The position numbers and the translations under genes were made by a program. DNA of 64,000 nt from Kineosporia corallincola (lineage in GTDB: Bacteria > Actinomycetota > Actinomycetes > Actinomycetales > Kineosporiaceae): positions 62,001 to 126,000 of the forward strand of contig NZ_JAHBAY010000008.1 in NCBI RefSeq assembly GCF_018499875.1, in the 5' to 3' direction. The notes beneath the pieces were generated by a model. It was not told where the DNA came from, made no database searches, and saw only the letters and a program-made list of their open reading frames with translations. Position 1 is the stretch's first letter. Each line of letters begins with the position of its first letter. This document shows, in pieces, positions 42,864-64,000 of this stretch.

Positions 42864-42866
42864 GCG

Positions 42867-43127: not shown

Positions 43128-43163
43128 GCCGTTCACCCGCGAAAAGCCCTGCGGCCTAGGCGT

Positions 43164-44263: not shown

Positions 44264-44287
44264 GACGGGCTCCCTCTCGCTCGGGCT

Positions 44288-44354: not shown

Positions 44355-44361
44355 CGGTCCG

Positions 44362-44925: not shown

Positions 44926-45027
44926 GTCGTCACGCCGGGGGCGGAGTGCCCTGCGGCGGTGATAATCTCGGTCGTGCTCAAGGGGTCGGCAGAGCTGTCG
45001 CCCTTCCTGGACGGGGAGGAATTCCTG

Positions 45028-45141
45028 ATGAAGAAGCTGCTGATGGTCGCGGTCGCGTCCGCAGCCGGCGTCGCCGTGTGGCGCAAGGTCGGAGCCGGCA
45101 AGCCCAGCCAGCCCTGGGCATCGGCGACCGACAAGATCTGA
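45028..45141 (+). CDS. DLW-39-like small protein
   Basis: A 37-residue protein, MKKLLMVAVASAAG followed by VWRKV and an end ATDKI. It matches the actinobacterial DLW-39 family in its MKKLL start, single membrane-like helix and WRKV segment, but the name-giving DLW triplet is replaced by PW. In relatives the gene lies near gyrA and the tRNA-Ile/tRNA-Ala pair near the origin; here tRNA-Ala follows within 42 bases. GGGGAGGAATTCC provides the ribosome site. Function unknown. Confidence 0.72.
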   Translation: MKKLLMVAVASAAGVAVWRKVGAGKPSQPWASATDKI

Positions 45142-45182
45142 TTCCTCCCGTCCCGCGAGTGGCAGAATCACTCGCGAGGCTC

Positions 45183-45255
45183 GGGGACGTGGCGCAATTG
45201 GTAGCGCACCTGCTTTGCAAGCAGGGGGTTGTGGGTTCGAGTCCCATCGTCTCCA
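45183..45255 (+). tRNA. tRNA-Ala (TGC)
   Basis: The acceptor stem GGGGACG pairs with CGTCTCC, discriminator A. The D arm is GGCGCAATTGGTAGCGC (with loop), the anticodon stem CCTGC/GCAGG encloses TTTGCAA with anticodon TGC, and the T arm carries GTTCGAGTC. CCA is not encoded. A terminator hairpin follows ten bases later. Confidence 0.97.
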
Positions 45256-45264
45256 CCGCAGGTC

Positions 45265-45299
45265 AAGGGCCGGTTTCCGAGTGATCGGAACCGGCCCTT
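45265..45299 (+). terminator. Terminator of tRNA-Ala
   Basis: AAGGGCCGGTT pairs with AACCGGCCCTT, continued by CCGA/TCGG beyond a one-base bulge, with loop GTGA. It lies ten bases after the tRNA. Confidence 0.88.
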
Positions 45300-45709
45300 C
45301 TGCTTGCTGGGACCCTAACCCTCAGACTCCCCTCGCTCGGGCGTCCCCGTTGGCTTCGTCGGATGATCGCGGCGAGGCCAGCCAGTACGGGAGCCACGGC
45401 CCTGCGGTACTGGATCACCGTTTCGTGCAAGAACCGTCATCCACGAGGTTTCGCACTCCGAATGCGTTTTCGTGCTGTCATGGTTCACTCACTGTCGGAT
45501 GAGCAGGCCGGCCACTTCCCACCGGCTGCCGTCTCTAGGAGTCGAGCGGACGCCCGAAGCACAGGACGATGGCAGGCCGCATTCCTTCGACCCAGGATTC
45601 AAGGGTCGCCTGTGGAAAACCTTCATGCCGCCACACAGCAACCCGGAGGAGCCCCGCTCCGGTATGTGATCATGACCCCAAGATCCGTGCCGCAGAGGGA
45701 GTCCCGATC
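45300..45709. other. Non-coding stretch after tRNA-Ala with lower GC
   Basis: A 410-base stretch between the tRNA-Ala terminator and the next gene. Reading frames here are short and irregular in codon use, and GC is lower than in the flanks. No tRNA-Ala 3' repeat, integrase remnant or insertion sequence end was found. The promoter of the next gene should be at its right end. Confidence 0.5.
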
Positions 45710-46234
45710 GTGCCCTACTCGCAGATCCCCGAGCTCGATGCCCTGCACGAGTTCGACACGGCCCACCGGCACTACTACTACGCCCAGGGGTTCGAGCTGT
45801 ACGAGACCTTCGGGAACCGGGACGACCTGGCTCCGGGCTGGAGCGACGACGACGCCTTTCATGCCCGCCTCAAGTCCTTCGCGCAGGCCACGGCCGGCGG
45901 GTCGATCTACGCCTTGTGGCAGGCAGACGACGGGGCGCGGCCGGTCGTGGTGTTCGGCGACGAGGGCGGCATCCATGTCGTGGCCACCGGCGTGCGCGAT
46001 CTGCTGCGCATCCTGACCTTCGACGTGGAACCGATGGTCGACTGGGACCGGGCGTACTACTTCAAGAGCGACGAGGACGAGCCGAGCGACGACCACGACG
46101 CGTACGTCACGTGGCTACGCGGCACCCTCGGGCTCGAACCGGTGGACGACGCGGACCGGCTCGTCGAGACCGCCCAGCACCGCCACGCGGCGTCCTTCAA
46201 GGCCTGGATGGAGCCGTTCGCCCAGCAAATGTGA
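45710..46234 (+). CDS. Hypothetical protein, SUKH/immunity-like appearance
   Basis: A 174-residue acidic protein (VPYSQIPELDALHEFD start). Aromatic-rich HRHYYYAQGFELYETFG, then SIYALWQADDG, PVVVFGDEGGIHVVATGVRDLLRIL and a C-terminal helical part. The alternation of beta strands with GxDGGxHVVA and LRxLLF-like segments recalls SMI1/KNR4 (SUKH) or related immunity folds, but I cannot assign it. GTG start after GAGGGAG. No toxin gene is adjacent. It may be an orphan immunity-type or regulatory protein. Confidence 0.7.
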   Translation: MPYSQIPELDALHEFDTAHRHYYYAQGFELYETFGNRDDLAPGWSDDDAFHARLKSFAQATAGGSIYALWQADDGARPVVVFGDEGGIHVVATGVRDLLRILTFDVEPMVDWDRAYYFKSDEDEPSDDHDAYVTWLRGTLGLEPVDDADRLVETAQHRHAASFKAWMEPFAQQM

Positions 46235-46512
46235 CACAAAGCAGGCGACTCACCACTCCCTGGAACCGGTTCCCCGTGTTCAGATAGCAAGTGCGGATCT
46301 AAGCCAAGGGGTGGGTGTGGGGAACTCTCGGGCGTGGCAGGTCGTGGCGGTGCTGTTCCTGTGCATCGGGCTGCCGCAGGTGGTGCGGGGTGTGGTCGAC
46401 GGCTCGACCGGCGAGCTGGTGGTGGGGCTGGTGTCGCTGGGCGCCTCGGCCTCGGGGTTCTACGAGGCGAGGGCCCAGCGACGAAAAGCTCAGAGCCAGG
46501 CCGGGAACCGGC

Positions 46513-48720
<2,208 letters not shown>

Positions 48721-48889
48721 TCTGGGCCTCCTGGCTCGATCACGTGCTTGATCAGGTCCGATACGGGTCTCAGCCGCTCCGCTGAACCATGATCATTGCC
48801 CTTAATGGGCCGTTCTGCACGTTGAAGGGACAACCGCCCGAATCGGTGTCCGAGGTGCCCGCCGTCCACCATTGCGGGACCATCGCCGG

Positions 48890-49942
48890 ATGCTGCTGGA
48901 CGTCCGGACCATCTACGCCGAGCCCGCCGCCCTCCAGCTCGAGCGCGGGCGGCAGGTGGTGGAACGCTGGCCGGGTGCCGAGGTGATCGAGGTGGCCTCG
49001 GCCAACCGGATCGACGCGGTGCACGGTGACGAGCAGAACGTGCAGCGCTGGGTGCGGGTGAAGACCGAGGTGCTGGCGCTGGGCGTGCGCAAGACGATGA
49101 CGGCCCGGGTGAACGGGCGGTCGGCGGACTGGATCGCGCCGAGCGCCGCGAACGGCTGCGCGATGGCCTGCGCCTACTGTTATGTGCCGCGGCACAAAGG
49201 TTATGCGAATCCGGTCACGGTGTACGCCAACATCGAGCAGATGATCGGCTACCTGACCCGCCACGTGGCCCGGCAGGGCCCGAAGACCGAGCCGAACCAG
49301 TGCGACCCGAGCGCCTGGGTGTACGACCTGGGCGAGAACAGTGACTGCTCGGTCGACGCGATGATCAGCGACAACGTCGCCGACCTGGTCGCCGCCTTCC
49401 GCGATCTGCCCACCGCCAAGGCCTCATTCGCGACCAAGCAGGTGAACCGGGACCTGCTCGCCTACGACCCCCGGCAAAGAACCCGGATCCGATTCTCGGT
49501 GATGCCCGCACGCACGGCGAAACTGCTCGACATCCGGACGTCTTCGGTGGCCGAGCGGATCGCGGCGGTGGACGATTTTCTGGCCGCCGGCTACGAGGTG
49601 CACCTGAATCTGTCGCCGGTGGTGGTGCACGAGGAGTGGCTGACCGACTGGGCCGAGCTGCTGGAGCAGCTGAACGACGTGCTGTCACCGGCAGCGAAGG
49701 CCCAGGCCGCGGCCGAGGTGATCTTTCTGACCCACAACGAGGGGTTGCACGATCTCAACCTGGGCTGGCACCCGCAGGCCGAGGACCTGTTGTGGCGCCC
49801 CGACATCCAGGAGTTCAAGATCTCGCAGAACCGCATGCGCAACGTGCGATACCGGGCGGCCTGGAAGTCGGTCTGGAAGCAGCGCCTGCTCGACCTGATC
49901 GGCGAGCGCGCTCCCTGGCTGACCGTGCGTTACGCCTTCTGA
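48890..49942 (+). CDS. Spore photoproduct lyase-like radical SAM protein
   Basis: A 350-residue radical SAM enzyme. The cluster motif is C90-x3-C94-x2-C97 (CAMACAYC), followed by YVPRHKGYANPV. ATKQVNRDLLAY, RFSVMP and LNLSPVVVHEEW agree with the spore photoproduct lyase family, which reverses thymine dimers in spore DNA using a 5'-deoxyadenosyl radical. Actinobacterial members are longer-named 'SPL family' and untested as lyases. ATG 48890 is the first fit. It is divergent from glgX and followed by a hairpin before the Mut7-C gene. Confidence 0.88.
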   Translation: MLLDVRTIYAEPAALQLERGRQVVERWPGAEVIEVASANRIDAVHGDEQNVQRWVRVKTEVLALGVRKTMTARVNGRSADWIAPSAANGCAMACAYCYVPRHKGYANPVTVYANIEQMIGYLTRHVARQGPKTEPNQCDPSAWVYDLGENSDCSVDAMISDNVADLVAAFRDLPTAKASFATKQVNRDLLAYDPRQRTRIRFSVMPARTAKLLDIRTSSVAERIAAVDDFLAAGYEVHLNLSPVVVHEEWLTDWAELLEQLNDVLSPAAKAQAAAEVIFLTHNEGLHDLNLGWHPQAEDLLWRPDIQEFKISQNRMRNVRYRAAWKSVWKQRLLDLIGERAPWLTVRYAF

Positions 49943-49947
49943 CCCAA

Positions 49948-49997
49948 AAATTTTGGACGACGAGGAGCCCGCGAGAAGCTTGCGTCGTCCAAAATTT
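49948..49997 (+). repeat. 15-bp inverted repeat immediately before the Mut7-C gene
   Basis: Perfect arms AAATTTTGGACGACG / CGTCGTCCAAAATTT (49948-49962, 49983-49997) with a 20-base loop. It starts six bases after the radical SAM stop and ends four bases before ATG 50002, where a ribosome site is expected but missing. It can be a terminator, a translational control hairpin, or a mobile palindrome. Confidence 0.85.
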
Positions 49998-50001
49998 GAT
50001 C

Positions 50002-50704
50002 ATGGTGACCAACCACGGAACGGCACGCTTCACGATCGCCGAGGAACTGCGGTTCATGCTGCCGGTGCGGCATCGGGACGGGATCGTCGCGGTGCCGGTC
50101 GACGGCACGAATTCCCTTCTGCACGAGATCGAATCGCTGGGGGTGTCGCGCACCGAGTTCGGCCGGCTGGAGGTCGACGGGCGGGAGGTGGCGGGGGACC
50201 ACCGGCCGGTGCCGGGCGAATCGGTGACGGTGCACGCGATCGAGCGGCCGCAGCGGGTGCCCGCCCACCGTTACCAGCTCGACGTGCACCTGGGCACGCT
50301 GGCCCGGCGCATGCGGCTGCTCGGGCTGGACACGGCCTACGACAGCGAGGACATCGGGGACGCCGCACTGGTCGAGAAGGCGGCCCGGGAGAACCGGGTG
50401 ATGCTCAGCCGCGACCGCGGCCTGCTGCGCCGTAAGGCCCTGCCGCACGGCGCCTTCGTGCGCGGGCAGGATCCGGATGCGCAGCTGCTCGACGTGCTCG
50501 ACCGGTTCCGGCCGGAGCCGGCGCCGTGGACCAGGTGCCCGGGCTGCAACGGCCTGCTGCGCCCGGCCCCGGTGGACGAGATCGCGCCGCTGGTCGAGCC
50601 CGGCACGCTCCAGACCTACGAGGAGTTCTTCCGCTGCCAGGACTGCGGCCGGCCGTACTGGCGCGGCGCGCACGGCGAGGGGCTCGACCGGATCATGGAG
50701 CAGG

Positions 50705-50727
<23 letters not shown>
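50002..50727 (+). CDS. Mut7-C RNase-domain protein with ubiquitin-like N-terminus
   Basis: A 241-residue protein. Residues 1-85 look like the Mut7-C ubiquitin/ThiS-type fold (TIAEELRFMLPV, VEVDGREVAGDHRPVPGESVTVH in part). Residues 90-235 are the Mut7-C domain, a PIN-fold RNase relative: HLGTLARRMRLLGLDTAY, ENRVMLSRDRGLL, and a zinc ribbon with CPGC and CQDC. Predicted as an RNase, not tested. ATG 50002 lies just after a 15-bp inverted repeat and lacks an evident ribosome site. The 3' end overlaps the convergent subtilase by 23 bases. Confidence 0.9.
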
Positions 50728-52444
<1,717 letters not shown>

Positions 52445-52548
52445 GTTCGAACCTCGTCCCGGTCGGCTGGCCACGTCCCCTGAAACATCGGGAGCCGGTG
52501 ACCGGGTATCAGGGGCCGATCGGGTGCGGTCGGCCGCGACCGCCCTGC

Positions 52549-53100
52549 TCAGTGGCTGGCTGGGCTCGTCACCGCGTAGCTGAGCAGCACCAGGCCGTTC
52601 GGGGTGCGGCGACCGTCCTGGAGGGTCAGTCGCCGCAGAACGTCCGGGGTGTCGAACAGCTTGCGCCCGGAACCGGCCAGCGAGGGTGCGATGACCAGGC
52701 GCAGTTCGTTCACCAGCCCGGCCGACAGCAGGCTCTGGGCCAGCCGGATGCTGCCGTGCACACCGATGTCGCCGCCGCTGCGCGCCTTCAGCTGCCGCAC
52801 GGTGTCGGCCGGCTTGTCGGTCGCCTCGGTGTTGGTCCACGGGGTGGTCAGCGGCGAGCTGGTGGCCACGTACTTCTGCACGCCGTTGATGAAACCGGCG
52901 AACGGCTCCAGATCGGAACCCGGCCAGAACCGCGACCATTCGTCGTACATGGCCCGGCCCAGCAGCACGGTGTCCTGGCTGCCGATGACCTCGGCGAGGT
53001 GCTCGATGTACACCTCGTCGTCGTCCATCGGGAACCAGTTCTCCGGCGCCTCGGCCACGCCGTCGAGCGAGACCAGTTCGTAGAGCACGACCTTGCGCAT
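52549..53100 (-). CDS. Dihydrofolate reductase-fold (RibD C-terminal-like) protein
   Basis: A 183-residue protein of the dihydrofolate-reductase-like family. The typical parts are LYELVSLDGVAEAPENW near the N-terminus, DTVLLGRAMYDEW, GDIGVHGSIRLAQSLL, and LVNELRLVIAPSLAGSGRKLF (in part). Such proteins are common in actinobacteria as NADPH-dependent reductases of unknown substrate, related to the RibD reductase domain. ATG 53100 has GGAAGGGAAG upstream. It lies on the same strand as the subtilase and the beta-helix gene but is separate from both. Confidence 0.9.
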   Translation of the reverse strand: MRKVVLYELVSLDGVAEAPENWFPMDDDEVYIEHLAEVIGSQDTVLLGRAMYDEWSRFWPGSDLEPFAGFINGVQKYVATSSPLTTPWTNTEATDKPADTVRQLKARSGGDIGVHGSIRLAQSLLSAGLVNELRLVIAPSLAGSGRKLFDTPDVLRRLTLQDGRRTPNGLVLLSYAVTSPASH

Positions 53101-53197
53101 CACGTCTTCCCTTCCGTCATGGGTGAAGACGCGCGTGGTCACGAAAAATCATCGGCGCGGGGCATACCGGTTCTTCCGGCCCAGCCAGACGAAAAAG

Positions 53198-53234
53198 ACC
53201 CGGTCCAGGCCACCCTGACGGGCCTGGACCGGGT
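53198..53234 (-). terminator. Terminator of the beta-helix protein gene
   Basis: A perfect 14-bp stem (53198-53211 with 53221-53234), nine-base loop, followed on the minus strand by CTTTTTC. It lies 15 bases beyond the stop of the gene at 53249. The U-tract makes it a convincing intrinsic terminator. Confidence 0.92.
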
Positions 53235-53248
53235 GGTTCACCGGAGAG

Positions 53249-54793
53249 TCAGCTCACCAGCAGGTCGAACTTCTCCGCCTGGCCGCGCTCGGTGGTGTCG
53301 GAGAGCAGCCGGCTCGTGCCGCTCTGGACCCGCACGTACTCGTGGTCGACGTCGGCCTGGAGACTGACCGATCCGTCGTCGTTGCGCAGCACCGCGAACT
53401 TCTCCCAGGGGCCGAGCGCGGTGCGGTTGGCGATCAGCGGCTCGGCGCCGGAGTTCTCGGCCGTGACCAGGCTGTCGTTGGCCTGGGCGCGCAGGGCGAC
53501 CAGGCCCTCGCCGGCGTCTTCGACGTCGAACTTCTCCCACACCCCGGCCGAGGTGATGGTGGCGACCAGCGCGGTCTTGCCGTTCGGGTCGGCCTGCACC
53601 CACTTGCCGGTGGTGCGCGAGCGCAGCGCGATCGTGTCACCCTCGGCCGGCAACGGCGAGGAGGCGCTCTGGTGGCTGATGCCCAGCAGGAAGTTCAGTG
53701 ACGTCTGCTGGAAGTCGGACTGCACGGTGCCGCCCTGCACGGTGTCGGACAGGAAACCGGCCGGCTCGGGGTTGGTGCCGTCGCAGGTGCCGTTCGGGAT
53801 GCCGACGTGGGTGGACCGGTCGGTGTTGCCGGTGATCGTGAAGTCCTTGACCCCGTTGACCGCGTAGCCGTAGCCCATGGTCGAGCCTTCGAGCGTGTTG
53901 TCGGTGACCGTGCCGCCGGTGACGACGGTGTCGGTGCACGACCACACGCCAGGGCCCATGGCCAGACCGATCTTGACCAGTGCACCGTCGGCGCGGATGG
54001 TGTTGCGCGAGACCACGGTGCCTTCGTAATTGCCGTCCATCGGGCCGTAATCGACCATGTTGATCCCGCCGAGCAGAGTGCGGTTCTGCGCGACGATCGT
54101 GTTGTCGGTGATCTGCGAACCGGGTGCGCCGAACACGACGACGGCACCGTCCGTGGCATCGGTGATCGTGTTGTTCCGCACCGTGCTGGTGCCGCAGGCC
54201 AGCGAGATGCCGTCGGCCCAGCCGTCCGGTGTTCCGGAGGGCCCGACCTGGTTCCCGGTCACCGTGGCACCCTGACAACCGGGGACGCCGCTGCGCACGA
54301 CTCCCTCGGCCAGGTGCAGTGCCGACCAGCCGCGCGGCTCGTAGAAGTGGTTGTTCTCGACCACCAGACCGGTCACGTCACCGCCGATCTCGAGCAGGCC
54401 GCTGCCGCCCTCGATCCGGCCCAGGGCCGGCCGGTTGCCGTCGACCTGGATGCTGCGCACGGCGATGCCGGAACGCCCACCGCCCTCGATCGCGGTGGCC
54501 TGGCCGGCACCGGTGACCCGCAGAACGGCGCGGGTGTCGCCGGTGGGCCGCCCGACGGTCTGGATCGCCTGGTTCGCGGCCGAGAACCTGATCGGCGTGG
54601 TCAGCTCGAAGACGGCGGAGGCGCACAGCTCGGCCACCGCGCCCTCTCCGGACAGCGCGTCCTGGATGTCCTGCCCGGTGCCGGAGGCGATGCAGTCCTC
54701 GGGGTTCGCGGCGCTGGCCACGGTCTGCCCGGCCAGGGCGAGCAGGGCGGCCGCGGCGACCGTGGCGGCGACCGCCTTGGGAGTGGTGAGCAC
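53249..54793 (-). CDS. Secreted right-handed beta-helix protein with fascin-like C-terminal domain
   Basis: A 514-residue secreted protein with signal peptide residues 1-28. Residues 90-365 are a parallel beta-helix with many N-N-x-I/F turns (VVENNHFYE, VRNNTITDATDG, ITDNTIVAQNR, VVSRNTIRADG, VTDNTLEGS), as in polysaccharide lyases and related enzymes. The C-terminal 130 residues (IALRSRTTGKWVQAD, VALRAQANDSLVTAEN, VSLQADVDHEYVRVQ) look like a fascin/beta-trefoil domain. A surface-polysaccharide-related role is inferred. GTG start follows GAAGGA. It has its own terminator. Confidence 0.8.
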   Translation of the reverse strand: MLTTPKAVAATVAAAALLALAGQTVASAANPEDCIASGTGQDIQDALSGEGAVAELCASAVFELTTPIRFSAANQAIQTVGRPTGDTRAVLRVTGAGQATAIEGGGRSGIAVRSIQVDGNRPALGRIEGGSGLLEIGGDVTGLVVENNHFYEPRGWSALHLAEGVVRSGVPGCQGATVTGNQVGPSGTPDGWADGISLACGTSTVRNNTITDATDGAVVVFGAPGSQITDNTIVAQNRTLLGGINMVDYGPMDGNYEGTVVSRNTIRADGALVKIGLAMGPGVWSCTDTVVTGGTVTDNTLEGSTMGYGYAVNGVKDFTITGNTDRSTHVGIPNGTCDGTNPEPAGFLSDTVQGGTVQSDFQQTSLNFLLGISHQSASSPLPAEGDTIALRSRTTGKWVQADPNGKTALVATITSAGVWEKFDVEDAGEGLVALRAQANDSLVTAENSGAEPLIANRTALGPWEKFAVLRNDDGSVSLQADVDHEYVRVQSGTSRLLSDTTERGQAEKFDLLVS

Positions 54794-55008
54794 GGGAAGT
54801 CCTTCGCTGAGACGTCTGAACGCCCTTCAAGCTAGGCACTTCCTCGGTACCTCCTGCAAAAGCACCGCAAAGGAATTGCTAAGAGCCATTTTTCGGCGTT
54901 GTTTTTCCAAAACGTTGCTCTGGTTGAGGATTCGCAACGTACCCAGCGCAGATCCGGTTCAGTGGCGCCCGCCACACTTTGCCGGGCGCCACCGCTGCTC
55001 CAGTTGCC

Positions 55009-56010
55009 TCAGTTGCCCACGCCGAGGTTCGCCATGAAGGCCGACGGGTAGCGGTCGCCCCGGGCCGATCCGGCCGGCACCGCCCGCTCGATCAGGGCCA
55101 GCTCGTCGGCGGTGAGTTCCAGCTGCGCGGCCGGCAGGGCCTCGGCCAGCCGGGTGCGGGTGCGGGCACCCACCAACGGCACCACGGCCGGGTCCTGCGC
55201 CGCCACCCAGGCGATGGCCAGCTGGGCCACCGTGCAGTCCCGGGCGGCCGCGATCTTCCGCAGCTCCTCCACCAGGGCCAGGTTGTGCTCCACGTTGTCC
55301 GCGGCGAAGCGCGGGCTGAGCGCACGGTGGTCGCTGTCGGCCGGGCGGGTGGTGCGCTCCGTCGTCCAGTGCCCGGAGATCAGGCCCCGGCTCAGCACGC
55401 CGTAGGCGGTCAGGCCGATGCCCAGTTCGCGCAGGGTGGGCAGGACTTCTGTCTCCACCGCCCGGGAGATCAGCGAGTACTCGATCTGGAGGTCGCTGAT
55501 CGGGTGGACGGCGTGGGCCCGGCGGATCGTCTCCGCGTTCATCTCCGACAGGCCGACATACCTCACCAGGCCGGCCTCGACGAGCTCCTTGATCGCGCCC
55601 ACCGTCTCCTCGATCGGCACCGCCGGGTCGAGGCGAGCCGGACGGTAGATGTCGACGTGATCCGTGCCCAGCCGGGTCAGCGAGTAGGTCAGGTTGCTCC
55701 GGATCGCCTCCGGCCGGGCGTCGTTGCCGCCCGGCATGCCACCCGGTCGCAGCAGCAGGCCGGTCTTCACGCTGAGCAGGTAGCTGTCCCGCGGCCGGTC
55801 GCGCAGGGCCTCGGCCAGCAGCAGTTCGTTGTGCCCGGCGGCGTAGAAGTCCCCGGTGTCGATGAGCGTGACGCCGGCGTCGAGGGCGGCGTGCACCGTG
55901 GCGATGCTCTCGCCGCGGTCGGCCACACCGTAGGCGCCGGACATGCCCATCGCGCCCAGGCCCAGCGCGGAGACCGTGGGGCCGTTCTTGCCCAGGATGC
56001 GTGTCTGCAT
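55009..56010 (-). CDS. Aldo/keto reductase
   Basis: A 333-residue NADPH-dependent oxidoreductase with the (alpha/beta)8 fold. LGLGAMGMSGAYG opens the fold; the catalytic pocket includes DTGDFYAAGHNE (Asp and Tyr), and Lys in SVKTG. The cofactor site is PLVGARTRTRLAEAL. It resembles the YakC/AKR13 group of broad carbonyl reductases. GAGGAG precedes ATG 56010. It is divergent from an XRE/MmyB-type regulator, which is often the partner regulator of a neighbouring reductase; palindromic half-sites lie between them. Confidence 0.92.
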   Translation of the reverse strand: MQTRILGKNGPTVSALGLGAMGMSGAYGVADRGESIATVHAALDAGVTLIDTGDFYAAGHNELLLAEALRDRPRDSYLLSVKTGLLLRPGGMPGGNDARPEAIRSNLTYSLTRLGTDHVDIYRPARLDPAVPIEETVGAIKELVEAGLVRYVGLSEMNAETIRRAHAVHPISDLQIEYSLISRAVETEVLPTLRELGIGLTAYGVLSRGLISGHWTTERTTRPADSDHRALSPRFAADNVEHNLALVEELRKIAAARDCTVAQLAIAWVAAQDPAVVPLVGARTRTRLAEALPAAQLELTADELALIERAVPAGSARGDRYPSAFMANLGVGN

Positions 56011-56046
56011 GGTGTTGCTCCTCGTCGTCCACAGGTGTTCGCCCTT

Positions 56047-56149
56047 GCACCGACAACGGTGCGCCCCGCGGGGACGGAACGGGAGAGGAGCGTTCATCGT
56101 GGGAGGGCCTCTCCCTGGATGCCGGGGGCGGACGGTTGCACGATGGTGC
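56047..56149. promoter_or_regulatory. Candidate operators between reductase and regulator genes
   Basis: GCACCGACAACGGTGC at 56047-56062 is a perfect six-base-arm palindrome. GCACGATGGTGC at 56138-56149 repeats the GCAC/GTGC arms directly before GTG 56151. Both could be sites for the HTH regulator. Confidence 0.4.
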
Positions 56150-56150
56150 G

Positions 56151-57008
56151 GTGGAACGTGAGCAGCTCGCCGATTTTCTGCGCCGTCGCCGCGAGGCGAT
56201 CCGACCGGGTGAGGTGGGCCTGGCCGACGGCCCACGGCGCCGCACCGCAGGACTGCGACGTGAGGAGGTCGCGCAGCTGGCCGGGATGTCGGTCGACTAC
56301 ATCGTCCGGCTGGAACAGGGACGCAGCAGCCAGCCCTCGACCCAGCTGCTGGCTTCGCTGGCCCGGGCCCTGCGCCTGACCGACGACGAGACCAGCCACC
56401 TGTTCCATCTGGCCGGGCATCAGCCTCCGCCGTCCGAGGGCGTGGCCCAGCTGGCCCGGGCCGGGCTGGTGCGCCTGCTCCACCTGCTTGAGGGCGCCTC
56501 CGGCATGGTGATCTCCGACCTCGGCCAGGTGCTCGCCCAGAACCGGACGTCGCTGCTGCTCAGCGGCAATCACATGGACCTGGCCGGTGACCGGCGCTAC
56601 CTGCTCTGGCGCTGGTTCACCGAGCCCGGCAACCGCGGGACCCATCCGCGCGAGAATCAGGAACACCACAGCCGTCAGCTGGTCGCCGACCTGCGGGCGA
56701 CCTTCGGCCGGCGCCCGGGCGACCCCGAGGTCACCGGCCTGGTGCAGCGTCTTGCGGCCCGCAGCAGCGATTTTCGCCGCCTCTGGGACGAGCACGAGGT
56801 GGCGGTGCGCCGCGCCGACCGCAAGACCCTGCTGCACCCGCGGGTCGGGCCCCTGTTGATGGACTGCGAGACCCTGGTGACTCCCGACCTGCGGCAGCAG
56901 CTGCTGGTTCTGACCCCGGCGGACGATGAGTCCCGGGAGCGGATGGATCTGCTGAGGGTGCTGGGGGTCGAGGAATTCCCCTCCGGGCTGCCCACTTCCA
57001 GGCGGTAG
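56151..57008 (+). CDS. XRE-family regulator with MmyB-like ligand-binding domain
   Basis: A 285-residue regulator. The helix-turn-helix is in GLRREEVAQLAGMSVDYIVRLEQGR (in part GLRREEVAQLAGMSVDY), a strong match to the XRE group with the GLRREEVA opening. The C-terminal 190 residues form the MmyB-like domain (LLHLLEGASGMVISDLGQVLAQN in part, LLWRWFTEP, HEVAVRRADRKTLLHP), which binds fatty-acid-like ligands in structures of relatives. It faces the aldo/keto reductase gene and is its likely regulator. GTG start sits right after a palindrome. Confidence 0.92.
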   Translation: MEREQLADFLRRRREAIRPGEVGLADGPRRRTAGLRREEVAQLAGMSVDYIVRLEQGRSSQPSTQLLASLARALRLTDDETSHLFHLAGHQPPPSEGVAQLARAGLVRLLHLLEGASGMVISDLGQVLAQNRTSLLLSGNHMDLAGDRRYLLWRWFTEPGNRGTHPRENQEHHSRQLVADLRATFGRRPGDPEVTGLVQRLAARSSDFRRLWDEHEVAVRRADRKTLLHPRVGPLLMDCETLVTPDLRQQLLVLTPADDESRERMDLLRVLGVEEFPSGLPTSRR

Positions 57009-57114
57009 CGCCGGCGTGTTGTGTGAGCGATCACAGTGAGGTTTCGGAGCCCTCACCGCCCTCACCGCCCGGACCGCCACGACCCGTCCGAGCTCGTGCC
57101 GACCGACAAACGGT

Positions 57115-57147
57115 GAGCGCCCCGGAGGCTAGGCCTCCGGGGCGCTC
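57115..57147. terminator. Terminator after the XRE/MmyB-type regulator gene
   Basis: A perfect 15-bp GC-rich stem (57115-57129 with 57133-57147) with loop TAG. It lies about 105 bases after the stop of the regulator gene and just before the island boundary. Confidence 0.85.
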
Positions 57148-57228
57148 GATCTGCGAATCCCCACATGCTCTAGGGATGTCCGCAGGGACAATCTTCGGTC
57201 TTTCCAGCGTTTCCGCTGGTCAGACGGA

Positions 57229-57273
57229 GTGGGCCTAAGTGGACTTGAACCACTGACCTCTTCCTTATCAGGG
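57229..57273 (-). other. tRNA-Ile(GAT) 3'-half remnant, predicted attachment site
   Basis: On the minus strand this block reads from the anticodon loop (CTGATAA, anticodon GAT) through variable loop, T arm (GTTCAAGTC) and acceptor 3' strand TAGGCCC with discriminator A. The 5' half is missing: bases before the anticodon loop cannot pair with the 3' stem side, and no matching GGGCCTA acceptor strand occurs nearby. This is the normal footprint of a tRNA-targeted integrative element at its distal end. Confidence 0.82.
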
Positions 57274-57388
57274 CGTCGCTCGCCTGCATCGGTAGCGTCA
57301 ACGCCGCTCTCACCTTGTGCTTTGCGAGCTTGGACGATGATCGTTCGCCGGGGCCTGCCCTCTATCCCCCGGATCTACCCCTGTCTCC

Positions 57389-57418
57389 TAGGGCCGTCCT
57401 AGGGCCAGTTGTAGGGCC
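57389..57418 (+). repeat. Three TAGGGCC direct repeats near the island edge
   Basis: TAGGGCC occurs at 57389, 57400 and 57412, spaced 11 and 12 bases apart, about one DNA turn each. They lie about 120 bases inside the island from the tRNA remnant. Arm-type integrase or excisionase binding sites have this helical phasing. The rest of 57274-57511 shows no gene. Confidence 0.55.
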
Positions 57419-57511
57419 AGAAATGACGTCACCGCCATGCCTCCGCACGGCGGACGGGGCTGGCATGAGGCTCTCGCAGAACTCCCCACTCAGCAGCGCT
57501 GAGCGGATAGT

Positions 57512-57979
57512 TCAAACGCGCTCCGCCTGAGACGGTCCGTCGCCAGCGCCTTCCGCAAGATCGCGACGGGCCTTACGAGCGGCGATAGAAGCGTTGAGTG
57601 CGCGGATCTTTTCGATGTGCCGCTTCTCGGTAACGATGATCTTGTTGCCGACGACGATGGGACCGTCTGAGTCGACGACGATCTTGCGAAACCGACCTCC
57701 AGCAGTCGCTGCCTGCTCTTGGGACTTCGACAAGTCGATCATCTCCTTACTGTCGATGTGCCGCACTTCCCTCAGATCGATGTCGGCAGGAGGCTCGCCC
57801 TCGTTAACCTCCTCGACGAAACGAAGCTTGAGAATACTGCGTATCTCGTTGGCCGAGTTAGATCCCTGGATGCGCTTTAACTCATCCGGAGTAACACAGA
57901 AGCATCCCGCCACTGCCCGTCGCGGATAGCGAAAACGGACAAAAGGTAATATGTTCCAAAAGCGGATTCTTTCGTACAT
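57512..57979 (-). CDS. Hypothetical protein at island edge, lower GC
   Basis: A 155-residue soluble protein of unknown family (MYERIRFWNILPFVRF start). It has mixed alpha/beta character: ELKRIQGSNSANEIRSILKL, IDLREVRHIDSKEMIDLSK, then a beta-rich RKIVVDSDGPIVVGNKIIV, and a basic C-terminal helix EKIRALNASIAARKARRDL. Codon use is less GC-biased than the core genes. Its ATG comes two bases after the stop of the upstream membrane gene, so the two form one operon. Function not recognised; defence or element maintenance is conceivable. Confidence 0.7.
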   Translation of the reverse strand: MYERIRFWNILPFVRFRYPRRAVAGCFCVTPDELKRIQGSNSANEIRSILKLRFVEEVNEGEPPADIDLREVRHIDSKEMIDLSKSQEQAATAGGRFRKIVVDSDGPIVVGNKIIVTEKRHIEKIRALNASIAARKARRDLAEGAGDGPSQAERV

Positions 57980-57981
57980 GA

Positions 57982-58506
57982 CTAGGCGAACTTCCGCGCA
58001 AGCCAGGCTCGTAGACTCAACCGGAGACGCCTCTTAGTCCGCATACCAGCCGACGCTACAGGAACCACGGGTTGCTCTTGAATCGAGAACATGGTCATCA
58101 CCGCCTCCAGCAGGCCCGTCTCGAAGTCGTTCTTGGTCTCCACCTCCAAGGCCGCCAGCAGCTCCAGCGTCACATCTAGACTCAGTCTGGGCTCAGCTCC
58201 GTCTCCTATGCTTCTGTCATATACCCATATAAGCATTTTCCACCAGTTCTCCCGCTCAACACGCTCCCGCTCTGCTTTGGCATCCGCCCCATGGCGTTCA
58301 GTAGCGGCATCGCGGTCTTTCTTGCCCTCTTTTCTTTCTTCGACAATTTTGTGTTTCGCTGATTTATACGCAACAATTGCGGCAATCAGTGCAGCAGCGC
58401 CACCAAAACCAGGCGTATTAAACCAATTCGCAAACCAGTCCAGAGTCTCGGGGAGCCATTCCCCGAACCACGCTCTTGTGATATCCCATCTAGATTCATG
58501 CCGCAT
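57982..58506 (-). CDS. Hypothetical membrane-anchored coiled-coil protein
   Basis: A 174-residue protein. Aromatic-rich N-terminus (FGEWLPETLDWFANWFN), one transmembrane segment (FGGAAALIAAIVAYKSA, about residues 32-48), then a charged coiled coil (EERKEGKKDRDAATER and onward) and a C-terminal basic end. It resembles small phage- or element-encoded membrane proteins but no family is recognised. ATG 58506 is the most likely start; the ribosome site is weak. It precedes the 155-residue protein in a two-gene operon, divergent from the HAD hydrolase gene. Confidence 0.65.
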   Translation of the reverse strand: MRHESRWDITRAWFGEWLPETLDWFANWFNTPGFGGAAALIAAIVAYKSAKHKIVEERKEGKKDRDAATERHGADAKAERERVERENWWKMLIWVYDRSIGDGAEPRLSLDVTLELLAALEVETKNDFETGLLEAVMTMFSIQEQPVVPVASAGMRTKRRLRLSLRAWLARKFA

Positions 58507-58619
58507 GACTCTTTGGTCGTTCAGCCGAGGGTGAGACTTTTCATCTACCCATTGGTAGGTTTGAGCTTGACAACCGACCCTCGACCAAATATCCGACTTG
58601 CGAACTAGGGAGCTATCAC

Positions 58620-59285
58620 GTGCCTCGACCCATTCGGGCCGTCTTCTTCGATGTTGGCGAGACCTTGGTTGACGAGACCAGGGAGTACGGAACGTGGGCT
58701 GACTGGCTGGGTGTACCTCGACACACGTTCTCTGCTGTGTTCGGCGCGGTCGTCGCCCGGGGCCTGGACTACCGCGAGACATTCCAGCATTTCCGTCCTG
58801 ACTTCGACCTAGCGGCGGAACGACGGAAGCGCATCGATGCTGGCGATGGTGAGACTTTCGCTGAAGGCGATCTGTACCCGGATGCTCGTGCGTGCCTGGC
58901 GGCTCTGCGAGAACTGGAGGTAGTCGTCGGGATCGCCGGAAACCAGACGGCGAGGGCTGAGGAAATCCTGCGGGCTCTGGATCTGCCGATGGATGTTCTG
59001 GGTACCTCAGAGAGCTGGAACGCTGAGAAGCCCTCTACTGCCTTTTTTGAGCGGCTGGTCCAGGAGGCCAACTGCGAGGCAGGCGAGATCCTGTACGTGG
59101 GTGACCGGCTGGACAACGACCTGCTGCCGGCTCTGGAGGTTGGGCTTGAAGCTGCGGTGATCAGGCGCGGGCCGTGGGCGCATATCTGGGCGGACCGTCC
59201 TGAGTTGGCGCGTTGTCTTTTCCAGCTCGACGGTCTCGCAGAACTGCCCAGCCTGGTGGAGAAGCACAACCAGCAGTTCGCGTAA
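58620..59285 (+). CDS. HAD-family hydrolase, island copy
   Basis: A 221-residue HAD-fold protein. Motif I VFFDVGETLVDE has nucleophile Asp, motif II is GIAGNQT, motif III Lys in EKPSTAFF, and motif IV YVGDRLDNDLLPA. The cap domain lies after motif I, as in subfamily IA phosphoglycolate phosphatase-like enzymes. Substrate unknown. GTG start preceded by AGGGAG. It is not closely similar to the HAD gene at 24125. Its stop is ten bases from the end of the convergent TPR regulator gene. Confidence 0.88.
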   Translation: MPRPIRAVFFDVGETLVDETREYGTWADWLGVPRHTFSAVFGAVVARGLDYRETFQHFRPDFDLAAERRKRIDAGDGETFAEGDLYPDARACLAALRELEVVVGIAGNQTARAEEILRALDLPMDVLGTSESWNAEKPSTAFFERLVQEANCEAGEILYVGDRLDNDLLPALEVGLEAAVIRRGPWAHIWADRPELARCLFQLDGLAELPSLVEKHNQQFA

Positions 59286-59295
59286 TGGGCTGAGG

Positions 59296-60636
59296 TCAGC
59301 TGGCCGCCGCGATGAGAGTCCGGGCGCGGCTCATGGTGTCATCGGTTGATGACACGGGTAGTCGTTCCCGGACATCCGCGAACTGCGAGGTGGCCCGGTG
59401 CGAAGTAACGAGTGGTAGGTCGGCCTCGACGCTGAGCACGGTTCGTGCGGCGGCGTCTGGTTGTCCGGCGAGGATCTGGGCGGTGGCGAGTCGGGCTGAG
59501 ATGAGGACGCGGGAGCGGCGTTCATCGGGGCCACGGTGGGTCAGGGATGCCTGTAGGTGGTCGATGGCCTGGGTAGGGCGGCCGAGGTGGACGAGTACGG
59601 CGCCGGTCTGGTGTTCGAGGGCGGCGTGGTTGTAGCCGCCGGTCCAGTGCTGTGCCGATGTGGCTCGTTCGAGGTCTGCCTCTGCGGCGCGTAGGCAGGT
59701 TCGCGCTGACCAGTTGTCTCCGACTGAGGCGTGGGCTTCGGCGAGCATGCCGGTCATCCATGCTCGTCGTCGGATGTCGGCGTCTCGGGGCAGCGCTGAG
59801 CATGCGGCTTCGGCCAACTCCACGGCGCGGTGGGTGTGGCCGAGTTCGACGGCTTGAAGCGCCAGTGCGCGTAGGGCGGTTGCGCGGGCGGCACCGTCCT
59901 TGGCCTCGTCGGCCAGGCGGGCAGCGGTGATGTAGTAGCGCTGGGCCTGGCCGGCGCGGCCAGCGTCGGAGGACATCCAGCCGGCGAGGTAGGCCAGTTG
60001 AGCAGCTGCGGCGAACAGCGCGGGGCGGTGCCGACCGGTGGTGCCTTCCAGGAGCGGTGTGACTGCGTGCGCCAGGTAGGACGCTGTGGGCGGGAGGGCG
60101 TGTTCGCCGCCGAAGAGGTCGTCGGCTCGGGAGAACTGAGTGGTCATCTCCTGGATGCGGGTGATGTCGGACGGGCCTATGCGTGTCGGCTTGCCGCTGT
60201 TGTCCCGGGTGGGGAGTTCCCATGGCCTGGTTGGGACGCTCAGAGCGGCCAGGGTGTAGAGGCTTCCGGCGTTCAGGAAGGATCGTCGGTCCATGTCCTG
60301 CCTCCCGAGTCGGGTCAACCGGGCTACGGCGTCCCCGTGCCAGGGATTGTCCGGCCCGTCCTGGTCGCGTGAGGTCCACCCGAGGTCGTCTGCGGTGACG
60401 TCGGGTCTGTGCAGGAGTCTGCTCATGGCCTCGACGATCACCGGGACTGCCTCGGTTCGCGGCGTGGTCCCCGTTCTCCAGTGTGCGAGCGTGCTCTTGT
60501 CCGGGTACAGCACCCGGCCGCCGGTCTCGATGCTGACCGCGTGGATCTCGGCGGCGATCTCGGCCAGGGTGCGGCTGGTCGCCTCGACTGCGGCTTGCCA
60601 GCGTTCGTTGATGATCGGACGCCTTCGTTCCGTCAT
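59296..60636 (-). CDS. Transcriptional regulator-like protein with TPR repeats
   Basis: A 446-residue protein. Residues 1-80 look like an XRE-like helix-turn-helix (NERWQAAVEATSRTLAEIAAEIH, LAHWRTGTTPRTEAVPVI in part). A MDRRSFLNAGSLYTLAALS segment is typical of this actinomycete group. Residues 165-446 are TPR-like helices (AAQLAYLAGWMSSDAGR, ALRALALQAVELGHTHRAVELAE in part). Such proteins are numerous in Streptomyces and on its integrative elements, where they are thought to regulate neighbours. ATG 60636 is the start. It is divergent from the unknown protein gene at 60856. Confidence 0.8.
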   Translation of the reverse strand: MTERRRPIINERWQAAVEATSRTLAEIAAEIHAVSIETGGRVLYPDKSTLAHWRTGTTPRTEAVPVIVEAMSRLLHRPDVTADDLGWTSRDQDGPDNPWHGDAVARLTRLGRQDMDRRSFLNAGSLYTLAALSVPTRPWELPTRDNSGKPTRIGPSDITRIQEMTTQFSRADDLFGGEHALPPTASYLAHAVTPLLEGTTGRHRPALFAAAAQLAYLAGWMSSDAGRAGQAQRYYITAARLADEAKDGAARATALRALALQAVELGHTHRAVELAEAACSALPRDADIRRRAWMTGMLAEAHASVGDNWSARTCLRAAEADLERATSAQHWTGGYNHAALEHQTGAVLVHLGRPTQAIDHLQASLTHRGPDERRSRVLISARLATAQILAGQPDAAARTVLSVEADLPLVTSHRATSQFADVRERLPVSSTDDTMSRARTLIAAAS

Positions 60637-60855
60637 GGCTACCGTCCCCGTGGTCGCGCAGCAACCCTCCGCAACAGACAGGGTCCTCCGCCGGTTGCAA
60701 CCCGCGCAATGCCGACCGGCGGGTATTCAACTCGTTTCAACGGCTCTGAGGCTTCTCGTCGTCCTGGTCGCGTCCGACACTCGAAGTACCGAGTGCACAC
60801 GGTGTCCCATCACGGAAACAGCTTCGCTGCATCAGTTTTCGATGAGAGGAACAAC

Positions 60856-61596
60856 ATGACCACCGAAACGACCTCAACGCTCGCGCCGGTCAGCGTCACC
60901 ATGCCGGTGCCCTTCACGCCGGAATGGTCGCGGATCGACGGCATCACCGTGGACGGCCCGACGGTCACCGTGGATCCGGCCCGCTACTTCTTCCGCTACG
61001 AGAACCCGTCGTGGCTGCTGGTGGACTGGGACCTGGTCCGCCGGGAGCTGCTGGACCACCCGCAGGAAAGCACGGGCCAGGCGCTGGAACAGCGGGCGTT
61101 GGAGTTCGTGCAGGAGCACGGGCGGGTGACCACCTCGCCGGCCGACGTCCTGGTCGCGGCTTACAAGGTGGCCGAGTACCTGTACCGGGACATCGACATT
61201 CCCGGGGTCGAGGTGACTGAGCAGCAGCTGACGGCGCTGCGCGAAGCGACGACGCTCATGGCGCTGAACCGGGTCGAGTTGGACGGGCACATGTCGAACG
61301 TGGGTTCCTGCTGGTTCTTCCCGGTGGCCACTTCGGTCGTGTTCGATTTCAGCCACGAAGAGGGCGAGGCGCTGGACGAGATCTATCACGGGGGCTGGTT
61401 CAACGAGAACCGCCGCCGGGATGCCGTCCTGGCTCACGTGGCCCTCGGTGGCCGGCTGGTGCACGGGTGCCAGGCGAGCGCTGACATGTCCGGCGGGTGC
61501 GTGCTGGCCTACGGCACCGACCTGGACGGGTTCCGGTCGGAGCTGAACGGGCTCAAGGCCGAGTGGATCGAACGCGTCGCCGCAATGCGGCCCTGA
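60856..61596 (+). CDS. Hypothetical island protein, unknown family
   Basis: A 246-residue protein. A Thr/Val-rich head (MTTETTSTLAPVSVTMPV) precedes a mixed alpha/beta body: ITVDGPTVTVDPARYFFRY, SWLLVDWDLVRRELLDH, a helical VLVAAYKVAEYLYRDIDI, and Cys-containing SNVGSCWFFP, VHGCQASADMSGGCVL. No signal peptide. I do not recognise the family. ATG 60856 follows GAGAGGAAC. A methyltransferase follows 71 bases later on the same strand, and the divergent TPR protein is a candidate regulator. Confidence 0.78.
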   Translation: MTTETTSTLAPVSVTMPVPFTPEWSRIDGITVDGPTVTVDPARYFFRYENPSWLLVDWDLVRRELLDHPQESTGQALEQRALEFVQEHGRVTTSPADVLVAAYKVAEYLYRDIDIPGVEVTEQQLTALREATTLMALNRVELDGHMSNVGSCWFFPVATSVVFDFSHEEGEALDEIYHGGWFNENRRRDAVLAHVALGGRLVHGCQASADMSGGCVLAYGTDLDGFRSELNGLKAEWIERVAAMRP

Positions 61597-61667
61597 CCTG
61601 CTGAGACTGGCGCGGGTCCGTCCTCCCTCCGGACGGGCCCGCGTCCTCACCTGGAAGGAAACGAGCG

Positions 61668-62390
61668 ATGCATGTGGACGCAACCGTGAACCTCAGGGCT
61701 TGGGACATCATCGGCGGTGAGACCGATGCCCACAGTAAAAGCATTATCCCGCAAGACATTCAGTGGACAGCGTGGCCGGATCTCGAACCGAACCATTCCA
61801 TCCTCGGCGATCCCGCCGGCCTCGATGTGATCGAGCTTGGGTGCGGAACCGGTGAGCACGTCGCCTGGTCCGCAGTGCAAGGTGCGCGGACTGTGCTCGG
61901 GGTGGATATCTCGCCCGGTCGCCTGGCCGTCGCGGAGCAGCGGTTCGGCGGTCTGCCCGGTGTCCGCTGGATGTGTGGGGATGCTGAGTCCGTGCTGCCT
62001 GGGCTGTCGCCGGTCGATCTGGTCCTGTCCGTGTTCGGGGCGCTCTGGTACTCGGATCCCGACGTCCTTCTCCCCGCGATCGTCGCTCGGTTGCGTCCGG
62101 GCGGGGTGCTGGCAGCCTCGGTAGGCGCGCCTCGTCCACTGGATCTCCCTGGCCGGCGGGTCGATCACTACCGAGCAGAGGACGGACGTCGGTTACCGGT
62201 GATCCACTACGTCTACGGCCCCAAGACCTGGGCCGCTCTGCTGGACCGGCATGGCCTCACCCTGCAACACCTGGTCGCGGTCACCGGGCCGACTGGTCAC
62301 ACGACGCTCGTCTTTCGGGCTCAGTACCAGCAGGAAGAGAGCACTTGCCGCCATCAACAGACCACAGGCGGCGAACGCTCCAGGCGGTGA
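61668..62390 (+). CDS. Class I SAM-dependent methyltransferase
   Basis: A 240-residue methyltransferase. Motif I is VIELGCGTGEHVAW, the acidic residue after strand two is in VLGVDISPGRL, and LSVFGALWYSDPDVLLP contains motif IV, with LRPGGVLAASV as the post-motif loop. Small-molecule acceptor likely. The fold is complete at FRAQ near base 62322; the last 22 residues lie antisense to the MFS gene and look like read-through after loss of an earlier stop. ATG 61668 follows GGAAGGAAACGAGCG. Confidence 0.85.
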   Translation: MHVDATVNLRAWDIIGGETDAHSKSIIPQDIQWTAWPDLEPNHSILGDPAGLDVIELGCGTGEHVAWSAVQGARTVLGVDISPGRLAVAEQRFGGLPGVRWMCGDAESVLPGLSPVDLVLSVFGALWYSDPDVLLPAIVARLRPGGVLAASVGAPRPLDLPGRRVDHYRAEDGRRLPVIHYVYGPKTWAALLDRHGLTLQHLVAVTGPTGHTTLVFRAQYQQEESTCRHQQTTGGERSRR

Positions 62391-63500
62391 GACAGAGACA
62401 AGGATGGGCAGGCTGGCCATAGCGAGCATGCCGCCGACGTGGATACCGGTGGTGTAGAGCGTCATCGCTCGTAGCCGCTCGGGGCCGGCCAACAGGGACA
62501 ACCGGGTTCGCAGCGTCACGTCACCGATGGGGACAAGCACGCTGAACGCTGCGGTCAGGATCAGCAGCACGGGGAGGTTCCCGGCAGCAGCGAACCCGGC
62601 CAGGATCAGACCTCGGACAATCCACGAGGACGCCAGGATGGTCAGCCATCGTCCGGGCAACCGGGTGTTACCGACCAAGAGATTCCCAGCCAGCGATCCG
62701 ATGCCGAGACAGGTGATGACCAGGGCATACGCGTCCGGTCCAGCGTCGAGCTGGGTGGCCAGTAGCACCGGGACCCCAACCGTCGTCACCCCGTAGAGGG
62801 CTTGGCCGATGTTGTCGATCAGCACTGACCAGGCAAGAGCCGGATGCCGGCCGGCCACTGCGCGCGCGGTCGGCGCGTCCTCGGTGGCCTTGGGATCGCT
62901 TGAGGTCGTAGGGACGGGTGCCAGGCTCGGTGCGTGTCTCGCCAACCATGCCAGGGCCAGGGCGGATACGCCGAACGTGGCTGCGTCGATGTAAAAGAGG
63001 ACGTCCGTGGCGACCACGGTGAGGATTACGGCGGCGGCCCCTGGGCCAACGATCCATGTCACCCGGCCGGTGACGTCCATAAGCCCGGTGACCGGGCGGA
63101 CCTGCTCGGCGGGGACCAGCTCGGGCAGCAGTGCGGCTCGGGCAGGGTCACTCAGGGCGTCAGCTGTGCCAATGCCGACGATGACCACGAGGACGCCGGC
63201 CAGGCCGAGTGAGTCCCATAGCCAGGGCAGGGCAGCGACGAGAGGGATCTGTACTGCCTCGATCCTGGCCAGGGCCCGAAAAGAAGCTATGCGGGCGATG
63301 ATTCGTCGACCAAAGAGCCCGATCAGGATGTGCGGGACGGATTCGGCGATGACGACGATGCCCAAAGCGAGCGCTCCGGACTTCTCCCACGCTGTCCAGG
63401 CGAGTGCGAGAGTGAAGAACCTGTCGCCAAACACGCTCAGCAGCTCGGCTAGCCAGAGCACGAGCACGCGGCGATGGCGAAGCAATCGGATGTACTGCAT
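62193..63500 (-). CDS. MFS transporter (MFS_3/enterobactin-exporter type)
   Basis: A 435-residue transporter with twelve hydrophobic helices. FGDRFFTLALAWTAWE, the ARAALLPELVPAEQ loop and the central GRHPALAWSVLIDNIGQALYG (in part) are typical of the MFS_3 group that exports siderophores and drugs. The membrane part ends near base 62300; the last 40 residues are hydrophilic and lie antisense to the methyltransferase, giving a 198-base convergent overlap. Export of the product of the neighbouring methyltransferase is a guess. Confidence 0.88.
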   Translation of the reverse strand: MQYIRLLRHRRVLVLWLAELLSVFGDRFFTLALAWTAWEKSGALALGIVVIAESVPHILIGLFGRRIIARIASFRALARIEAVQIPLVAALPWLWDSLGLAGVLVVIVGIGTADALSDPARAALLPELVPAEQVRPVTGLMDVTGRVTWIVGPGAAAVILTVVATDVLFYIDAATFGVSALALAWLARHAPSLAPVPTTSSDPKATEDAPTARAVAGRHPALAWSVLIDNIGQALYGVTTVGVPVLLATQLDAGPDAYALVITCLGIGSLAGNLLVGNTRLPGRWLTILASSWIVRGLILAGFAAAGNLPVLLILTAAFSVLVPIGDVTLRTRLSLLAGPERLRAMTLYTTGIHVGGMLAMASLPILVSVSPPGAFAACGLLMAASALFLLVLSPKDERRVTSRPGDRDQVLQGEAMPVQQSGPGLGAVDVVDHR

Positions 63501-63592
63501 GCGACTTCCCCCGAGGTCGGCACTGGAAGACCGGCCGAGACTAGAGGAAGTGGACGGCTACCCGCAGGGAAACCAGGCAGGTCCGGGGCTTG

Positions 63593-63760
63593 CTACGCCA
63601 GGTTCAGTTCAAGCTGAATGAAGACCGGAAGAGTGGGTTTGCGCACGCGAGGACGGGGCTTGCGCGGCGGCAGAGGACGGCGGACACGGGCGAATCGCCC
63701 CAGGGCATCACGCAGCAACAGAACGGGAAACCAGGAGTGCGGGGTGCGTCGGCGGTTCAT
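63593..63760 (-). CDS. Small basic hypothetical protein, 55 residues
   Basis: A 55-residue frame, MNRRRTPHSWFPVLLLRDALGR at the start (first 20 given: MNRRRTPHSWFPVLLLRDAL), a very basic Pro/Arg centre (PPRKPRPRVRKP) and a hydrophobic end FIQLELNLA. ATG 63760 lies 11 bases after AGGGAGG. It lies about 90 bases past the MFS gene start on the same strand. It could be a small nucleic-acid-binding or peptide gene; family not recognised. Confidence 0.4.
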   Translation of the reverse strand: MNRRRTPHSWFPVLLLRDALGRFARVRRPLPPRKPRPRVRKPTLPVFIQLELNLA

Positions 63761-64000
63761 CGGCTCCGTCCTCCCTTTGGTGGTCTCGCCGCGGTGCCGG
63801 CCGTTCTTGCCGGTCCCGCTGCGGGCACCAGGTACCGCGTCCCGGGAGGCTCGCAATCAAGTTCGCCGCAGCGACCTCGTCTCCCGGCAGCTGCACGGAG
63901 TGCAGACCTGAACCGGGCTGGGACTGCGGACTTGATTGGGAGTCGGGACGTGGTACCTGAAGGTGAGCCAAGAAACAAAGATGATTGAGAAATGTCACTT
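63761..64000. other. Right end of the window, no supported gene
   Basis: The last 240 bases carry only short frames with irregular codon use. A palindrome-like GGTACC context (63829, 63951) is present but not informative. The intact tRNA-Ile predicted for the island is not here. Confidence 0.4.

Follow-up and report, generated by a model that had tools for sequence, protein, structure and literature searches.

A probable pSAM2-type AICE in the tRNA-Ile(GAT) gene beside oriC of Kineosporia corallincola, and signs that the site was occupied serially

Described AICEs and the tRNA-Ile(GAT) locus

pSAM2, an element of 10.9 kb from Streptomyces ambofaciens, integrates in a tRNA-Pro gene. It is the type AICE, described in the parts of the papers available to us as having a RepSA-family initiator, a KorSA-like GntR regulator, Pra-like genes, an FtsK-like Tra, a tyrosine integrase and integration at the 3′ end of a tRNA gene (PMC3218068, PMC8584621, PMC3364876). 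To count as an AICE by the available part of PMC3218068, an element needs as a minimum a gene each for Int, Tra and Rep, and int must lie outside the stretch from rep to tra. pACPL of Actinoplanes sp. SE50/110 has a 43-nt att identity segment at a tRNA 3′ end, core-flanking repeats in attP, int, xis and repSA genes adjoining att, a pra gene and an FtsK-type tra gene (PMC3364876). In Streptomyces coelicolor, SCO3932–SCO3937 holds a GntR/Pra pair (SCO3932/SCO3933) sharing one intergenic region, together with TraSA-like and RepSA-like genes (PMC8584621).

The DNA analysed here (the window) is a stretch of 64,000 nucleotides from Kineosporia corallincola, C8:62001–126000, where C8 is contig NZ_JAHBAY010000008.1 of an 8.2 Mb genome in 53 contigs; window positions equal C8 positions minus 62000. 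We consider it very likely that a displaced piece of tRNA-Ile(GAT) in the window is the distal att site of an 18.9 kb pSAM2-type AICE, integrated in the tRNA-Ile(GAT) gene beside oriC. The element is like the three described systems in all the features listed above for each of them. Since Int, Tra and Rep are all present and int lies outside rep–tra, it falls within the minimum definition as worded in the available part of PMC3218068. It differs from pSAM2 in residing in tRNA-Ile(GAT), in having TAGGGC three times at each end rather than GTCACCCAG-type repeats (PMC3364876), in being larger and in its other cargo. pACPL differs in using tRNA-Pro, in its length of 13.6 kb and in having two 21-nt repeats, as opposed to two three-site arrays here (PMC3364876), while the S. 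coelicolor locus has a serine integrase and is termed an AICE remnant (PMC8584621). The sequences suggest a new AICE of a known kind beside oriC, with signs of serial site use; the advance is modest, because tandem AICEs and AICE remnants have already been described (PMC3218068, available part). A guess made from a single end has nevertheless become a delimited mobile element beside the replication origin, in a host tRNA gene of which we found no second copy.

On the minus strand, the 45 bases at 57229–57273 (the att core at the left, distal end) are identical in 45 of 45 positions to C8:138083–138127, and the identity ends sharply on both sides. The block spans from the anticodon stem to one base beyond the discriminator, and its 5′ side is other sequence. 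The earlier note, made from the window alone, had described a tRNA-Ile(GAT) 3′ half with a foreign 5′ side at this place, and was exact. The sole intact tRNA-Ile(GAT) found in the genome (C8:138084–138157, minus strand) lies 18.9 kb to the right, carries the same last 45 bases and is adjoined by an integrase gene. ARAGORN called no tRNA at 57229–57273, and Rfam at the gathering threshold found tRNA-Ala only in the window and nothing at the fragment. A DNA search of the same genome with a 91-base query around the fragment gave three matches: its own place, the intact tRNA-Ile at 90% over 82 bases, and a third at 73% (E 3.4e-4). With the intact tRNA-Ile as query (E 1e-12), the gene and the fragment were the two matches in this genome; of 12 further family genomes, 11 gave exactly one match each and the remaining one, with a completeness of 88%, gave none. 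Judged from these sequences, the identity of fragment and tRNA is not chance.

pMEA300 may use a tRNA-Ile gene. In the literature searched, a scope outside which the integration-site table of PMC3218068 lay, we found no AICE in tRNA-Ile. The tRNA-Ile gene may be used by ICEs of another kind, since the available part of a paper on Bradyrhizobium symbiosis ICEs mentions tRNA-Ile six times (PMC9174649).

The element occupies C8:119229–138083, which is 18,854 bp core to core and ends at the equivalent of window position 76083; the part inside the window is 57274–64000. Its GC content is 64.5%, against 69.5% for the window. We propose that the integrase (Int) recombined attP with the tRNA-Ile gene, the crossover being most likely in the anticodon loop, because the shared block starts at the anticodon stem-loop, which forms an inverted repeat with a loop of 7 bases. 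The functional tRNA would now join the host's 5′ half to a 3′ half that, like the flank behind it, was supplied by the element. The 3′ half and flank that the host had before would have been carried to the far end, at 57229–57273, so that the flank of the fragment would be what stood behind tRNA-Ile before integration.

The integration site in relatives

We compared the site in five genomes of the same genus (G001–G005). Each has one intact tRNA-Ile, none carries the element there, and the host genes around their sites match both outer flanks of the element. On the oriC side all five align from C8:138082 onward at about 84–85% identity (matches of at least 80 bits). On the other side G001, G002, G004 and G005 align with the window up to about 56980–56988, where a host regulator gene ends; G003 lacks a match to this end, yet aligns at 50723–52456 and 46319–49944 (matches of at least 80 bits). 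The claim that an integrated element ends at the fragment and extends rightward past the window was thus borne out, by the intact gene and integrase 18.9 kb to the right and by the relatives without the element.

The distance from tRNA-Ile to the aligned regulator end is about 140 bp in G001, 2.1–2.3 kb in G002 and G004, and 4.5 kb in G005. By these alignments, the integration spot is variable even without the element. Inspection by eye showed a FadR-type regulator and an MFS gene in the gap of G002 (L068 8300–10400) and G004 (L069 7375–9287). G005 has other genes between tRNA-Ile and the host regulator; near its tRNA-Ile (L070 10442–10816) there are also short repeats, which translate into stretches of recurring residues in several frames.

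To the right of the intact tRNA-Ile follow DUF3566, gyrA, gyrB, recF, gnd, dnaN and dnaA (named by eye from translations), with dnaA starting about 16 kb and ending about 13.5 kb away. The near-origin position that the earlier note had proposed is therefore upheld, as is the integrated element; its further proposal, that the element split a tRNA-Ile/tRNA-Ala pair, had to be given up. Without the element, tRNA-Ala(TGC) and tRNA-Ile are already about 12 kb apart in G001 and G002, 11 kb in G003, 20 kb in G004 and 18 kb in G005, and the distance from tRNA-Ala to the fragment in the window is 12.0 kb. The two genes share a strand in G003 and G004; in G001, G002 and G005 they converge.

Arm arrays and traces of an earlier element

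Repeats that flank the core are known as arm-type sites. Inside the left end of the element three direct TAGGGC sites lie on the plus strand at 57389–57417 (starting at 57389, 57400 and 57412; C8:119389, 119400 and 119412), and a twin array lies near the right end at C8:138014–138042 (138014, 138025 and 138037). In both arrays the three sites point in one direction and are spaced by 11 and 12 bp. In the 20 kb piece that holds the element (L034; C8 position = L034 position + 118500) the three-site pattern, with up to three mismatches, matches these two arrays and nothing else, with 0.03 matches expected. To judge only from their repetition and position, the TAGGGC triplets at the element ends are probably arm-type binding sites of Int. 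The GTCACCCAG-type arm repeats of pACPL are said to resemble those of pSAM2 (PMC3364876, available part). We rejected such repeats as the arms of this element: GTYACYCAG has a single occurrence in L034, where 0.58 are expected, and this one, at 6647, is distant from either end of the element.

Across 396 order genomes taken from a larger group, TAGGGC-N5-TAGGGC-N6-TAGGGC has three exact matches, namely the two arrays of the element and G001:C36:13510–13538; for the backward control pattern there was none among the matches listed. The array in G001 (L067, L098) has three intact sites and starts 50 bp past the intact tRNA-Ile of that genome. G001 has no match to Int at E 1e-60, and the 20 kb around its tRNA-Ile have no match better than E 0.088 to the element proteins searched. 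The simplest reading, which these sequences suggest, is that an element once present there was lost and left the array behind as a solo arm. The three-site motif may serve as a signature for tracing where this integrase family sits now or has been in the past.

A similar trace may lie just outside the displaced tRNA half. The sequence at 57107–57225 (minus strand) aligns with the right arm of the element with a score of 59, while the maximum in 2000 dinucleotide shuffles was 30. TCCCTG (57183–57188) and TCCCTA (57171–57176) occupy offsets 40 and 52, where the element arm has GCCCTA. The tRNA-Ile flanks of other family genomes score 15–25 against the fragment flank (G006, G008, G010 and G011) and 32 (G009, a distant family genome); since the latter exceeds the shuffle maximum, scores near 30 mean little. 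This scoring left out G007, in which the tRNA end was not located, and G012, which had no match. Against the right arm of the element the flank of G001 scores 51 and the other nine flanks 15–23. In addition, GTCTGACC stands four bases past the discriminator in the attL of this element, in the fragment flank and in a sister element of another genus of the family (G006), which resides in tRNA-Val (by eye). Among 30 tRNA loci of the K. corallincola genome (of 55 tRNA matches), GTCTGACC lies within 30 bases of the tRNA end at tRNA-Ile only.

We lean towards the view that the fragment flank is the degenerate arm of an element that occupied this site before. It may instead be native host DNA that the element captured together with the tRNA 3′ half, with no more than a single element ever having been present. 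A hairpin at 57115–57147 adjoins the tRNA, as would be expected of a native trailer, the similarity runs on directly from the shared core, and the third arm site is missing, so that the three-site pattern finds no match in the flank even with three mismatches. Against this stand the tRNA-Ile flanks of all five same-genus genomes, which are unlike the fragment flank (scores of 14–20, as opposed to 59 for the element arm), the two altered TAGGGC-like sites at the offsets of two of the element's three, and the recurrence of GTCTGACC at a different tRNA gene in G006. A native flank is thus possible, but we regard it as doubtful. The case for an earlier element comprises about 120 bp and two altered sites; genes of it that would still be visible to the left of the fragment were rejected, as the element proteins found nothing better than E 0.11 in 40001–57300.

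By a similarly modest preponderance, we favour the wider proposal that the oriC-proximal tRNA-Ile of the genus has repeatedly been visited by one integrase family, and that lost elements leave solo arms. G001 would represent the scarred and empty state, with three intact arm sites and no such integrase found, and the window a scarred site that was re-invaded, the older arm having been pushed outward beyond the displaced tRNA half. If this is true, solo arm arrays record past occupancy in genomes that now appear empty.

Gene content and a sister element

The genes at the left end of the element encode cargo. A 155 aa protein (57512–57979, minus strand) and an ORF of at most 266 aa (57982–58782, minus strand; the true start is probably internal, and a hydrophobic stretch is seen by eye) match no Pfam, PADLOC or PHROGs family at E 0.001. 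They are followed by a HAD-like hydrolase (58620–59285, plus strand; PF00702, E 7.4e-14), a TPR-repeat protein that is a probable regulator (59296–60636, minus strand; TPR matches under the Pfam cut-off), an ORF whose true start is probably internal (60409–61596, plus strand; no Pfam, NCBIfam, PADLOC or PHROGs family at E 0.001), a SAM-dependent methyltransferase-like protein (61668–62390, plus strand; PF13649, E 4.8e-15) and an MFS transporter (62193–63500, minus strand; PF07690, E 5.8e-19). To the right of the transporter gene come a 384-aa ORF without assigned function and an NsdA-family regulator (248 bits against an NCBIfam cut-off of 75).

The backbone occupies the right part of the element. 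A small putative lipoprotein (L034 12227–12703, by eye) is followed by a GntR/UTRA regulator (L034 12762–13730, minus strand; GntR and UTRA domains in Pfam) and, divergent from it, by a SCO3933-family protein (L034 13812–14234; 102 bits against an NCBIfam cut-off of 80), a pair of the KorSA/Pra type. The main transfer protein is an FtsK/SpoIIIE-type translocase, Tra (L034 14231–15748; PF01580, 61.8 bits against 24, E 8.5e-17). After a 65-aa ORF comes the replication initiator, which among the kinds known from AICEs (RepSA, RepAM or Prim-pol) is a RepSA (L034 16263–17738; PF20199, 473 bits against a cut-off of 34, E 1.2e-141). Between rep and int lies a 97-aa excisionase-like protein, Xis (L034 17741–18034, its start chosen by hand within a longer open frame; HTH_17, 33.5 bits against 27; phrog_66, E 2.2e-5). 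The tyrosine integrase gene (L034 18117–19385, C8:136617–137885; PF00589, E 5.5e-13) stops about 200 bp from the tRNA-Ile 3′ end, which gives the order tra–rep–xis–int–att. To go by their relatives, the Xis-like protein would tip recombination towards excision, and RepSA would copy the circular form. Transfer, as double-stranded DNA, would be the task of the FtsK-like Tra, and these steps would be under the control of the GntR/Pra pair.

We rejected a prophage, as none of the 20 element ORFs is a phage structural gene by Pfam; a PHROGs scan of seven element proteins matched the excisionase only. The cargo was likewise rejected as a known defence system: among ten proteins PADLOC gave a single match, of the methyltransferase to a part of the mad2 model (E 6e-18), which we judged to be a generic methyltransferase match.

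A degraded element, no longer able to excise, appears unlikely. Tra scores far under the cut-off of the NCBIfam TraB model (39 bits against 800) and is not a member of that exact model, and the leftmost 1.5 kb have a GC content of only 57% and could be an added insertion. However, the reading frames of Int, RepSA, Tra, the Pra-type protein and Xis are all open, and the core repeat is perfect even though tRNA function no longer constrains the displaced copy. Random decay of a tRNA gene or an assembly duplication in this draft of 53 contigs is scarcely credible as the source of the fragment, because a single 367 kb contig holds both copies, each with its own outer neighbours, the repeated sequence breaks off cleanly after 45 bp and the integrase gene abuts the intact copy.

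Relatives of the integrase are rare. With at most four candidates scored per genome, Int has a match at E 1e-90 in two of the 396 order genomes, its own included, among the matches listed; at E 1e-60 it has one in two of 13 family genomes, again including its own. A search of genome contigs turned up one relative at 71%, on a MAG contig of 6.5 kb (L072) that ends inside int, and two weaker matches (42% over 89 residues, and 21%). No Int relative was found on viral contigs. On plasmids (83 records) and phages (353 records) all Int matches are below 60% identity, those listed being 22–29%, and RepSA relatives on plasmids (21 records) are all below 60%. A second RepSA-family gene of the same genome (C15:197782–199320; L076, L101; 334 bits) has a TraB-like neighbour and probably marks another AICE or a remnant; a tRNA-Lys lies nearby, with no duplicate within the 20 kb examined.

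In G006 we found a related element of about 23 kb in tRNA-Val(GAC), with Int beside the tRNA and a 46-bp 3′ duplication at C197:41791–41836. Identities between the two elements are 67% for Int, 51% for Xis, 53% for RepSA, 54% for Tra, 61% for Pra, 48% for GntR, 43% for the NsdA-type regulator and 57% for the HAD hydrolase. TAGGGC sites are present near both ends of the G006 element at other spacings, and the exact three-site array is absent. The same backbone is thus seen at two tRNA genes, tRNA-Val in G006 and tRNA-Ile here; closely related AICE integrases are able to use different tRNA genes, according to the available part of PMC3218068. In both elements the HAD hydrolase gene is convergent with the gene of a TPR/NsdA-type regulator (58620–60636 in the window; L096 6061–7609 in G006). 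Directly outside the tRNA-Val fragment of G006, L097:15579–15785 seems to hold the final codons of another tyrosine integrase (PF00589, E 0.0086, 16.3 bits against 27.1, below the Pfam cut-off), and accretion may have occurred at this tRNA-Val site too.
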